From Microthrixaceae bacterium (GTDB lineage: Bacteria; Actinomycetota; Acidimicrobiia; Acidimicrobiales; Microtrichaceae): a DNA stretch of 41,021 nucleotides. Of this stretch, positions 1-30,595 are shown one piece after another. Below the pieces are notes generated by a model that was not told the origin of the DNA, ran no database searches, and was given only the letters and a program-made list of their open reading frames with translations. Made by a program: the position numbers and the translations under genes. The stretch lies in NCBI GenBank assembly GCA_019694615.1, contig JAIBBP010000189.1, positions 1 through 41,021 of the forward strand, given 5' to 3'. The first letter of the stretch is position 1. Every line of letters starts with the position of its first letter.

Positions 1-670
1 AAGCTACCACCGTGGTGCCGACCGGTGCCCACATGTAGAGGAAGATCGCGTCGGCCGGCGCCTGGCGCACACATCCGTGAGAGCGTGGTGTGCCGAGTTG
101 AGCCTCCGACTGAAGGGGCTTGCCGTTGCCGCCGTAGGGGATCGTGTGAAAGCCGATGGCGAGCTTTCGTCCGCGGGCGAAACGGACCATGAACTCCATC
201 CGCGCCGACCCTGACGATGTGTAGCGGCTCTTGCTGAAGACGCGGTAGGTGCCCAGGGCGGGCATTCCGCGTCGGCCCGACACCAGATGGGTCTTGGCGA
301 CCGTGCCGTTGGCCTCGACCAGCCACACTCGTTGCGCACTGTTCGAGTAGACGATGCGGCGACCGAAACCGGAGTTCGCCGGCACCGGCGGCCCGGTGAT
401 CCAGCGGAAGAACGCGTCGAGCTGCTCGGGGGTGATCGAGGGGTCGATCCCCGGAAAGAGATCGCTGAGCGTCGGTGCCGGCGGTTGTGCCGCTGGCGCT
501 GGAGCGGGTGCCGGTTCGGCCGGTGGCGTGGTGGTTGTTGTCTCGACGGTGGTTGCCGGAGGATCGGTCTGGGCGCCGACATGGGCGTGGCTCGCGATCA
601 GCAGGGCGCCGACGATGACGGCGACGGCCACGGAGAGTCGCTGGGGGATTCGAGAAGCGGGGGAAGCCAT
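1..670 (-). CDS. L,D-transpeptidase (YkuD domain), C-terminus cut by window edge
   Basis: Open frame from ATG at 670 running off the left edge (223 codons seen, no stop). Residues about 12-34 form one hydrophobic segment (signal peptide or anchor), followed by a Thr/Pro/Ala-rich linker and then a YkuD fold. The catalytic signature is visible: His175 in IGFHTIP and Ser197-His198-Gly-Cys200 in SHGCVRQ. These enzymes make 3-3 peptidoglycan cross-links, or attach proteins, through a Cys acyl-enzyme outside the membrane. It is transcribed divergently from the TetR gene. The start is backed by a TAnnnT box ending 6 nt upstream. Family assignment is firm; the exact role in cell-wall synthesis is inferred. 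Only the last residues are missing. Confidence 0.9.
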   Translation of the reverse strand, partial: MASPASRIPQRLSVAVAVIVGALLIASHAHVGAQTDPPATTVETTTTTPPAEPAPAPAPAAQPPAPTLSDLFPGIDPSITPEQLDAFFRWITGPPVPANSGFGRRIVYSNSAQRVWLVEANGTVAKTHLVSGRRGMPALGTYRVFSKSRYTSSGSARMEFMVRFARGRKLAIGFHTIPYGGNGKPLQSEAQLGTPRSHGCVRQAPADAIFLYMWAPVGTTVVA

Positions 671-763: not shown

Positions 764-1318
764 GTGACAACTACTCGCCGCAGGTTGACGCCAGAAGCCC
801 GCCGCGACGAGCTGCTCGACGCTGCTGCCGACCTCGCGCTCGACGCCGACGATGCCACCGCTGCGACGCTCGAACGCGTGGCGGAGAAGGCCGGGTGCAG
901 CCGCAACCTGGCCTACAAATACTTCCCGAATCAGGCTGCACTGCTGGAGGCGCTCGCGTGGCGCGAGGGCGACGCCGTTCGCGAGCGGCTGGCCGGGGTG
1001 CCGTTGGATGCTCCTTTTACGGAATGGTTCGAAGCGGTGATCGACGCGTGCCTCGACCTGGCCGAGCAGCGGGGCCGGCTTCTGCTGATGCTCTTCGACC
1101 AGTCGATGTTTCCCGGCGGGCCGAGACGTCGCTCGATCGCGGCGGGCCTGGTCGCCGAGAAGTTGATGGCAGCGGGTTTGTCGTCCGACGTTGCGACAGC
1201 GACGGCACCAATCCTCACGTCGGCGATTCTGGGGAGTGCGGGTGCCGTCGTGGGCGGCTCCGACCGGTCGCTCGTGGCAACGCAGCTGAGGAGGGTCGCG
1301 GCGGCGATCATCGACTGA
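764..1318 (+). CDS. TetR/AcrR-family transcriptional regulator
   Basis: 184 residues from GTG 764. The N-terminus carries a TetR helix-turn-helix (about residues 12-58: RRDELLDAAADLAL, then ATLERVAEKAGCSRN-LAYKYFPNQAALLEAL). The rest is a helical ligand/dimerisation domain with no recognisable ligand signature. The open frame extends upstream to 287, but that part is antisense to the L,D-transpeptidase gene and is not protein-like. The GTG start is supported by TATCCT 6 nt upstream. The gene is followed by a 44-bp palindrome and a sulfatase gene in the same direction, so the sulfatase may be its target; this is inference. Confidence 0.88.
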   Translation: MTTTRRRLTPEARRDELLDAAADLALDADDATAATLERVAEKAGCSRNLAYKYFPNQAALLEALAWREGDAVRERLAGVPLDAPFTEWFEAVIDACLDLAEQRGRLLLMLFDQSMFPGGPRRRSIAAGLVAEKLMAAGLSSDVATATAPILTSAILGSAGAVVGGSDRSLVATQLRRVAAAIID

Positions 1319-1357
1319 CGCCCGGCCGACCAGCGCTTGCAATCTGGCGTCTCGTCG

Positions 1358-1401
1358 TTATTGTATCGATATCCACTAGATAGTGGATATCGATACAATA
1401 A
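1358..1401. promoter_or_regulatory. 44-bp perfect palindrome in the sulfatase promoter, candidate operator
   Basis: Two perfect 21-nt arms (1358-1378 and 1381-1401) flank a GA centre (1379-1380). The half-site contains TTGTATCGATATCCAC, and each arm has a nested TATCGATA palindrome. It is AT-rich in a GC-rich neighbourhood. The right arm ends with TACAAT (1394-1399), a good -10 hexamer, and overlaps the first bases of the AAGGAG ribosome-binding site (1400-1405) for the ATG at 1410. Binding here would block the promoter. In RNA the same sequence would fold into a hairpin against the ribosome site. The upstream TetR protein is the obvious candidate binder. Confidence 0.7.
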
Positions 1402-1409
1402 GGAGCGAC

Positions 1410-2969
1410 ATGGGACGACGACATCTCGCATTCGCCATCGCGGCGACTGCCCTCCTCGCTGGCTGTGTCCCACCAGGGGCCAATCCGCCCGGTCCGCCCG
1501 CCCCTCCGCCTCCTCCAGTGGGTCCTGACCTGCCAGCGGATCGACCCAACATCGTGATGGTGCTCGTCGACGACCTCGACGCGACGACCACGCCCTACTG
1601 GGATGCGATGCCCCGAACCAAGGAACTCATCGCCGACCGTGGACTGGTGTTCGACAACGCGTATTCTCCGACGCCGATTTGCTGTCCGGCCCGTGCGACC
1701 ATCCTCACCGGCCAGTACGGCCACAACACCGACGTGTTGACCAACAGCGGTGAGCACGGCGGGTGGGAGTCGTTTGTCGACGAGGGCGGCGAGGCGAAGG
1801 CCTTCCCGGTCCTGCTCGAGAACGCCGGCTACAACACGATGCTCGTCGGCAAGTACCTCAATGGGTATGAGGCGGAGCCGACCCACATCCCACCCGGATG
1901 GACGGAGTGGTACGGCGGCACTGACAACCTGCTGTACGCAGGGTACGGATACACACTCAACGAGAACGGGACGCTCGTGAAGTACGGAACCGCTCCCGAG
2001 GACTATGCCACCGACGTCATCGCGGCGAAGACGATGGACTTCGTTCACCGGGCAGAGGCGAACGACGGTCAGCCGTTCTTCACGTACGTCGCTCCAACGG
2101 CACCGCATCTTCCATTGAAGGCGCCACCCCGCTATGCGAACCACGAGTGGACCGATGACGTCGCTCCCCGCACGCCGAACTGGTACGAGAGCGACGTCAG
2201 CGACAAGAGCGCCTGGCTCGCGCAGTCGACGGTCAGCCACGACGCGACCCGCGACTTCAACGACACCGATCACCGCAACCGGATGGGCTCGCTCCTGGCC
2301 GTCGACGACCTCGTTTCGGGTCTGGTCGAGACCCTCGAATCACATGGTGAACTCGACAACACGGTCCTGATGTTCGTCTCCGACAACGGATACAACCTCG
2401 GCTCCCACAAGCTGATCCACAAGATGGCGCCGTACGAGGAGTCGGTGCGGGTTCCGCTGGTGATGGCCGGGCCGGGCGTTCGCACCGGACACGAGTCGCG
2501 CATGGTGATCCATCCCGACCTCGCGCCGACGATCCTCGATCTGGCAGGTGTCGAGTCGCCTGACTACGTCGACGGTGTCTCGCTCACGCCGTTGATGGGC
2601 GATGAACCGCCGACGACCTGGCGCTCGGAGTTCGTGGGGCAGTATCTCGGCGGCGCCGCTGGCGACAGCATCGGCGCCGAGCTTCCGCCGGGCCTCGAGT
2701 TCTGGCTTCTCGTGATGCTGTTGGGCCAGGAGATCCCGACGTACACGTCGATCCGTACCGAGCAGCATCTCTACGTCGAATGGGACCAGTCGCCGATCGG
2801 CCTCGATCCCGGTGTGGAGTTGTACGACATGGAAGCTGACCCCTATCAGCTGACGAATCTCCTCGCGACGCCAACGGGCGCCGCGGAGAACGCGGCGCTC
2901 GTCGCGGACCTCCGCGAGCGCATGAATCGGCTGGCTGCCTGCGCCGGCGTCACCTGCCGGGTGACGTGA
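1410..2969 (+). CDS. Type I sulfatase, predicted lipoprotein
   Basis: 519 residues from ATG 1410, which has AAGGAG just upstream; the earlier in-frame GTG at 1383 lies inside the palindrome and is rejected. The N-terminus is a lipoprotein signal with lipobox LAGC (Cys19), followed by a Pro-rich linker to about residue 40. The sulfatase fold then shows the metal-binding Asp54-Asp55 in VLVDDLD and the formylglycine motif C-C-P-A-R at 91-95, where Cys91 is converted to formylglycine, followed by ATILTGQ. Histidine motifs APTAPHLPLK and SDNGYNLGSHKLIHKM support alkaline-phosphatase-superfamily chemistry. The likely reaction is hydrolysis of sulfate esters from carbohydrate at the outer membrane face. 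The substrate is unknown and no formylglycine-generating enzyme is in the window. Confidence 0.92.
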   Translation: MGRRHLAFAIAATALLAGCVPPGANPPGPPAPPPPPVGPDLPADRPNIVMVLVDDLDATTTPYWDAMPRTKELIADRGLVFDNAYSPTPICCPARATILTGQYGHNTDVLTNSGEHGGWESFVDEGGEAKAFPVLLENAGYNTMLVGKYLNGYEAEPTHIPPGWTEWYGGTDNLLYAGYGYTLNENGTLVKYGTAPEDYATDVIAAKTMDFVHRAEANDGQPFFTYVAPTAPHLPLKAPPRYANHEWTDDVAPRTPNWYESDVSDKSAWLAQSTVSHDATRDFNDTDHRNRMGSLLAVDDLVSGLVETLESHGELDNTVLMFVSDNGYNLGSHKLIHKMAPYEESVRVPLVMAGPGVRTGHESRMVIHPDLAPTILDLAGVESPDYVDGVSLTPLMGDEPPTTWRSEFVGQYLGGAAGDSIGAELPPGLEFWLLVMLLGQEIPTYTSIRTEQHLYVEWDQSPIGLDPGVELYDMEADPYQLTNLLATPTGAAENAALVADLRERMNRLAACAGVTCRVT

Positions 2970-2986: not shown

Positions 2987-3042
2987 CCCGTTCTGTCCCG
3001 CGTCTGTAGAGGAAATCCTGAAGATTCGCGGGACAGAACGGG
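2987..3042. repeat. Palindromic intergenic repeat, copy 2 (56 bp)
   Basis: Perfect 16-bp arms CCCGTTCTGTCCCGCG (2987-3002) and CGCGGGACAGAACGGG (3027-3042) flank a 24-nt loop. It lies in the convergent gap between the sulfatase and DUF445 genes, where a bidirectional terminator would be useful, but there is no U-tract. It aligns over its full length to the reverse complement of the copy at 691-746. Confidence 0.85.
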
Positions 3043-6572: not shown

Positions 6573-6592
6573 GGCCCGACCCCCGCGAACCC

Positions 6593-6642
6593 GTTCTGTT
6601 GTACAAAGCGCGCGCCCAGGCGCGCGCTTTGTACAACAGAAC
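6593..6642. repeat. Palindromic intergenic repeat, copy 3 (50 bp)
   Basis: Perfect 24-bp arms (6593-6616 and 6619-6642) around a 2-nt CA loop. The outer part is GTTCTGTTGTACAAAGCG and the inner part is alternating GC. It shares the GTTCTGT/ACAGAAC ends with the other copies, but its interior is different. It lies between the response-regulator and kinase genes of one operon, so as RNA it could attenuate or stabilise and change the regulator-to-kinase ratio. Confidence 0.85.
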
Positions 6643-6656
6643 CGGTTGGGGGGCGG

Positions 6657-30537: not shown

Positions 30538-30595
30538 GCTCGTTCTGTCCTGCGAGAGCACCACCCGGGTGGTGCTCTCGCAGGACAGAACGAGC
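30538..30595. repeat. 58-bp perfect palindrome, repeat family copy 4
   Basis: Arms 30538-30566 and 30567-30595 are exact reverse complements with no loop; the outer part reads GCTCGTTCTGTCCTGCGAG and the centre is ACCCGGGT. It shares CGTTCTGTCC/GGACAGAACG with copies 1 and 2. It lies 12 bp after the methyltransferase stop and 17 bp before the rpsA promoter, so it could act as terminator in both strands. There is no T-tract. Confidence 0.9.

Follow-up and report, generated by a model that had tools for sequence, protein, structure and literature searches.

A perfect 44-bp palindrome before a Microthrixaceae sulfatase gene is probably a twin operator of the adjacent TetR-family regulator

We analysed a stretch of 41,021 nucleotides of Microthrixaceae DNA (hereafter the window) and found that a perfect 44-bp palindrome at positions 1358..1401, between a TetR-family regulator gene and a sulfatase gene, reads as two 22-bp operator sites placed end to end. 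Judging from sequence comparison, we consider it likely that this twin operator belongs to the upstream TetR protein and would switch the sulfatase, as a local switch of a familiar kind that stands out chiefly by the exact mirror identity its two sites have acquired. Computation established the palindrome, its division into two sites that recurs in relatives, its placement in the gap between the TetR gene and its target, and its association with the regulator. The result is a concrete candidate operator sequence together with a regulator-target pair, in a lineage whose closest kin are metagenome-assembled Microthrixaceae genomes.

The two genes are codirectional and separated by a gap of 91 nt, about half of which is filled by the palindrome. 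The upstream gene (764..1318, forward strand, GTG start) encodes a putative repressor of 184 aa, assigned by Pfam, AlphaFold and Foldseek. Its TetR_N domain (Pfam PF00440; 29 bits, cut-off 24) supplies an N-terminal helix-turn-helix, its AlphaFold model has nine helices arranged in the all-helical TetR-family fold (mean pLDDT 86), and its top Foldseek matches are TetR-family regulators. By its modelled fold and its helix-turn-helix, the regulator is an ordinary TetR. The recognition-helix segment reads GCSRNLAYKYF, and the pattern GCSRNL(A/V)Y(K/R/T)YF is common to the four operon-linked regulators of the window and of the relatives G022, G016 and G024.

The downstream gene (1410..2969, forward strand) encodes a sulfatase of 519 aa, assigned by Pfam and from its translation, with an LAGC lipobox and a Pfam Sulfatase domain (PF00884, 168 bits). 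Together with the domain, the CxPxR core of a formylglycine-type sulfatase was found, as CCPAR is visible in the translation; the full motif, which we take to be CxPxR-x4-TG, was matched by eye to CCPARATILTG. The FGE-sulfatase family (PF03781), which includes the maturation enzyme and also holds other enzymes, has a match in one open frame of the genome, at C17. A ribosome-binding site, AAGGAG (1400..1405, forward strand), was recognised in the sequence 4 nt before the ATG at 1410 and overlaps the edge of the palindrome.

The palindrome was confirmed as originally predicted. Its arms, TTATTGTATCGATATCCACTA at 1358-1378 and TAGTGGATATCGATACAATAA at 1381-1401, are exact reverse complements around a central GA, and it ends at 1358/1401, where the next pair outward (G/G) is mismatched. 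It is AT-rich in GC-rich DNA, with 30% G+C against 67% for the window, and about 8e-7 perfect palindromes with arms of at least 21 and a centre of at most 8 are expected per window by base composition. The description of the layout also holds to the letter, with TACAAT at 1394-1399, AAGGAG at 1400-1405 and ATG at 1410.

Next, we examined the relatives that carry the same gene pair. We compared 33 genomes of this family, counting that of the window; 5 of them have a sulfatase match at E 1e-60 and likewise 5 a TetR match at E 1e-8. As in the window, the two genes are codirectional neighbours in G022, G016 and G024. The sulfatase match of G024 (L007, L015, L034) is split across frames, one piece having an internal TGA, a possible frameshift or assembly error. 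The 44-bp palindrome is absent from all three TetR-sulfatase gaps, an outcome that the original prediction had itself named as refuting a single 44-bp site. All three gaps hold 22-bp pseudo-palindromes that align with one arm of the palindrome and follow roughly YTRTTGKAY-N4-RTMCAAYAR: TTGCTGTACTGGTATACAACAG and TTATTAGATCCCAGTACAACAG in G022, CTACTGGATTGTTGTCCAATAG and TTGTTGGATCTGAGTACAACAA in G016, and CTATTAGACTTACATCCAATAG in G024. In G016, the second site is followed (L026 after 2372) by a tandem of about three more imperfect units of 17 bp, of the form TTCTGAGTACAACAAGG, which repeat the right half of that site.

To score these sites, we mirrored the outer nine bases of the window arm, TTATTGTAT, and tried gaps of 0-14 between the half-sites; the test was devised after the relatives' gaps had been viewed, with its letters taken from the window only and those of the relatives unused. 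With a 4-nt gap, the half-site matches 13/18 positions in G022, 14/18 in G016 and 12/18 in G024. In two runs of 1000 shuffles, the single-gap P values were 0.000 and 0.001 for G022, 0.000 in both for G016, and 0.008 and 0.007 for G024. Summed over the three relatives, gap 4 scores 39/54, a value reached by no set among 1000 shuffles, and the other fourteen gaps score 28-33. Furthermore, the true nine-letter word ranks first among all 252 permutations of its letters (51; next 49); this full enumeration replaced a sampled control in which 5 of 2000 draws from the 252 distinct words reached the observed score. When the 22-bp arm is compared with the relatives by simple identity, the outcome is only suggestive (P 0.074 for G022, 0.006 for G016 and 0.083 for G024), and a pure symmetry scan of the relatives' gaps was not significant, with a lowest P of 0.087 (G024, 22 bp). 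These two tests are weaker; it is the symmetrised half-site test that carries the case for conserved sites.

We then allowed two sites to lie 20-26 bp apart and compared the pair scores with dinucleotide shuffles. The window scores 15+15 at a spacing of 22 (30/36), G022 13+13 at 23 and G016 12+14 at 24, each reached by none of 1000 shuffles; G024 has a single convincing site (12+8, P 0.005). As the half-site was derived from the window arm, only the relatives give an independent test of the window's pair score. Collectively, these scores and spacings indicate that the palindrome reads as two predicted operator sites end to end, site 1 (TTATTGTATCGATATCCACTAG) at 1358..1379 and site 2 (ATAGTGGATATCGATACAATAA) at 1380..1401, each aligned with the relatives, matching 15/18 scored positions of the symmetrised half-site and in itself only partly symmetric. 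The single 44-bp site of the original prediction is thereby corrected to two sites of 22 bp. A striking perfect palindrome can conceal two ordinary operator sites.

We asked whether the motif accompanies the regulator or the sulfatase. Among 23 sulfatase loci, 3 have the TetR gene, 10 were scanned for the motif and the other 10 are distant; a locus was counted as lacking this TetR when the stretch around the sulfatase gave no tblastn match at E 1e-3. A site scoring at least 12 is absent from 9 of the 10 scanned loci without this TetR, and the tenth, which is AT-rich, has six scattered matches, none at the twin spacing. In a profile search with the four regulators against 397 genomes of the order, 47 had TetR matches at E 1e-14. 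Apart from G000 and G016 these number 45, and for 28 of them we surveyed the best locus (96,403 bases). These 28 loci hold three sites of at least 12 and one twin arrangement, in G341 at a spacing of 23, and none of 100 shuffled sets had such a pair; G341 was selected from the 28 loci, and the shuffle control over all 28 accounts for this selection, which its single-gap P does not. The G341 twin site consists of TTGTTGTACCGTCCGTCAACAA, one base and CTATTGAACACGGGTTCAATAG, and lies between a TetR gene and a gene that we named from its translation as an ABC sugar-binding lipoprotein. In G110, one half-site match of 11/18, CTACTAGAAGAGCATCCAGTAA, lies just before another TetR gene (L091 2131-2152).

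The motif thus goes with the regulator and not with the sulfatase, given its presence in the three pair relatives and the G341 twin against the lack of a site at nine of ten scanned sulfatase loci without this TetR. A palindromic site in the adjoining gap, conserved with the regulator, is what characterises a TetR-family operator, and it was found here. The proposal that the codirectional upstream TetR is the natural regulator gains support from the motif in the TetR-sulfatase gap of 3/3 relatives and from the twin motif beside one distant TetR. The helix pattern was found in 20 of the 28 other TetR loci, where it begins GVS, and the G341 regulator has this other type of helix (GVSRGLLYAYF). 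The closest relative found for the G341 regulator, in G038 (51% identical), shows no twin motif in the DNA that follows its TetR gene, where the best score is 9/18, and no twin site was present at the five loci of G341 regulator relatives examined, G038 and four others. With a GVS-type helix and a G038 locus devoid of the twin motif, the motif is not general, and the G341 case may be a separate one.

Searching for the half-site, as had been suggested, succeeded at the orthologous pairs, where the 22-bp motif is present in 3/3 relatives, and gave no regulon across the genome. With up to 3 mismatches, the consensus pattern occurs in the window's own assembly here, as two adjacent sites, and at one further place, which equals the single match of a reversed-pattern control. 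In the 397 genomes, of which G022 and G024 are not part, the pattern with 1 mismatch is found in 8 genomes, compared with 6 when the control pattern is used, and alone it is therefore at background level; of the eight, the G016 match is the one known to lie in a TetR-sulfatase gap. No site of at least 11 precedes tetR in the window. The 15-mer core of the palindrome occurs once per arm here and has no copy elsewhere in the 3.76-Mb, 89%-complete assembly.

The genome also holds an interspersed family of palindromic repeats, GTTCTGTCC(C/T)GCG...CGC(A/G)GGACAGAAC, located in the window at 735-743, 2987-3042 and 30538-30595, the last copy being a perfect 58-bp palindrome. Copies or arms of this family flank the tetR-sulfatase pair on both sides. 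Its exact 13-mer has 89 forward and 92 reverse matches in the genome and none for the reversed control, mostly as paired arms 37 bp apart among the matches listed; of the 32 other genomes of the family, 5 have matches, only 1-5 apiece. It has the appearance of a REP-like element that expanded in this lineage specifically. Another repeat of the window, at 6582-6653, is a 35-nt inverted repeat that is 91% complementary with a 2-nt centre and contains TTGTACAA.

From these comparisons we infer how the twin operator might act, including binding, repression, the position of the promoter and the ligand. Two TetR-family dimers made from the upstream gene would bind the two adjoining 22-bp pseudo-palindromes, with a centre-to-centre distance of 22 bp or about two helical turns, and would probably sit on one face of the helix. 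Site 1 would cover a probable -10, and site 2 the start region with the leader as far as the ribosome site; a repressor on both sites would thus keep the sulfatase gene from being transcribed. Release of the repressor would come from a small ligand, which may be a substrate of the enzyme or its product. A response to sulfate esters, as first proposed, would be one candidate; the ligand is not readable from the target, since the gene that follows the distant G341 regulator with its twin motif encodes an ABC sugar-binding lipoprotein.

The promoter would consist of a possible -35 hexamer TTGCAA (1337..1342, forward strand) and, after a 16-nt spacer, a weak possible -10 hexamer TATTGT inside site 1 (1359..1364, forward strand), in a TTGNNN-16..18-TANNNT arrangement. 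The same arrangement with its -10 inside site 1 is present in G024 and G341 and not in G022 and G016, and a promoter scan called neither TTGCAA/TATTGT nor any other consensus promoter in the region. Transcription starts are placed from the distance between -10 and +1, and TTGCAA-16-TATTGT, as a weak candidate, would set the start near 1371. The original prediction had instead taken TACAAT as the -10 next to the ribosome site. Ending at 1399, it would place the start at about 1404-1408 and leave AAGGAG wholly or nearly wholly outside the message, so that the two roles exclude each other in one transcript and this pairing is not supported.

We also considered that the palindrome may act in RNA, as a hairpin of about 19 bp that precedes the ribosome site and serves as a terminator of tetR or as a translation switch. 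The window strand does fold at -28 kcal/mol (z -9.0), with a stem that extends to the ribosome site and stops there. Folding of this strength is exceptional in the window only, as the gaps of the relatives fold little better than shuffles though their DNA half-sites are kept: z was -0.85 in G022, -0.89 in G016, -1.48 in G024 and -0.91 in G341, and 40, 37, 17 and 36 of 200 shuffles, respectively, fold as well. A message starting near 1371 would furthermore hold one arm only. An intrinsic terminator was rejected, as the arm has 29% G+C and is followed by GGAGCG in place of the G+C-rich stem and T-run of such a terminator, no T-run follows the stem, and a terminator scan lists only another stem, of 5 pairs, at 1345-1357. 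We regard an RNA device as quite improbable, and joint control of transcription and translation by one site, as first proposed, is not supported, for the hairpin lacks conservation and could not be formed by a transcript beginning within the palindrome.

It is somewhat less improbable, though still unlikely, that the sites are operators of another, unlinked regulator with the neighbouring TetR as a bystander. Binding of the TetR here is a prediction, and TetR-family regulators are less commonly codirectional with their neighbour; against a bystander stand the motif with this TetR in 3/3 relatives, its lack at 9 of 10 scanned sulfatase loci without this TetR, and the twin motif next to a distant TetR, whose target is another gene. 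Least probable is a remnant of a repeat or mobile element akin to the other palindromic repeats of the genome, of which the GTTCTGTCC family provides many: the core of the palindrome is found only here, its composition and sequence are unlike those of the family, and orthologous positions hold its half-sites again.

Under the twin-operator reading, the perfect symmetry is a local feature. Compared as mirror images, the two 22-bp sites as divided here agree at 21/22 positions in the window, where the odd pair is the central GA, and at 15 in G022, 11 in G016 and 12 in G341. In PMC7202029, imperfect inverted repeats of E. coli are described to become perfect by template switching during replication. 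Correction of an imperfect inverted repeat by a template switch is plausibly the simplest explanation here, and the locus would then be a natural example of inverted operators becoming identical. An assembly fault is a possible source of the symmetry, although the palindrome sits 1.4 kb inside a 41-kb contig. More speculatively, an acidimicrobial group of TetR regulators, for which we found no description, could use end-to-end twin 22-bp operators set 22-24 bp apart before different targets (a sulfatase, a sugar importer), with template switching producing the perfect 44-bp palindrome here as natural operator homogenisation; we hold this somewhat less likely than its opposite. Among the literature matches listed for TetR-sulfatase pairs or two-site TetR operators, drawn from sources that cover few subscription journals, none describes this pair.

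Known TetR systems offer several comparisons. The Rhodococcus TetR-like protein 3f1b, Rv0078, EthR2 and FasR have the same fold as the window regulator (Foldseek E 8.9e-6 to about 1e-4), a likeness of fold at about 20% identity. According to PMC3511530, TetR, the textbook example of a two-operator regulator, has two 15-bp palindromic operators between tetR and tetA, and most studied TetR-family regulators of Streptomyces are divergent to a neighbour, whereas the window regulator is codirectional. The locus resembles tetR/tetA in having a putative TetR-family repressor and two predicted palindromic operators in the gap before the target. It differs in that tetR/tetA is divergent with both genes repressed through 15-bp sites, while here the genes are codirectional, the sites are of 22 bp, the target is a sulfatase and no site precedes tetR. 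In the account of QacR, CprB, CgmR and MS6564 in PMC4150764, two dimers share one DNA stretch of 22-32 bp in all, cooperatively for QacR and CprB. Two dimers on one stretch of DNA are also what we propose here; unlike the QacR-type pair of dimers on 22-32 bp in total, however, the window has two complete sites of 22 bp that adjoin and together occupy 44 bp.
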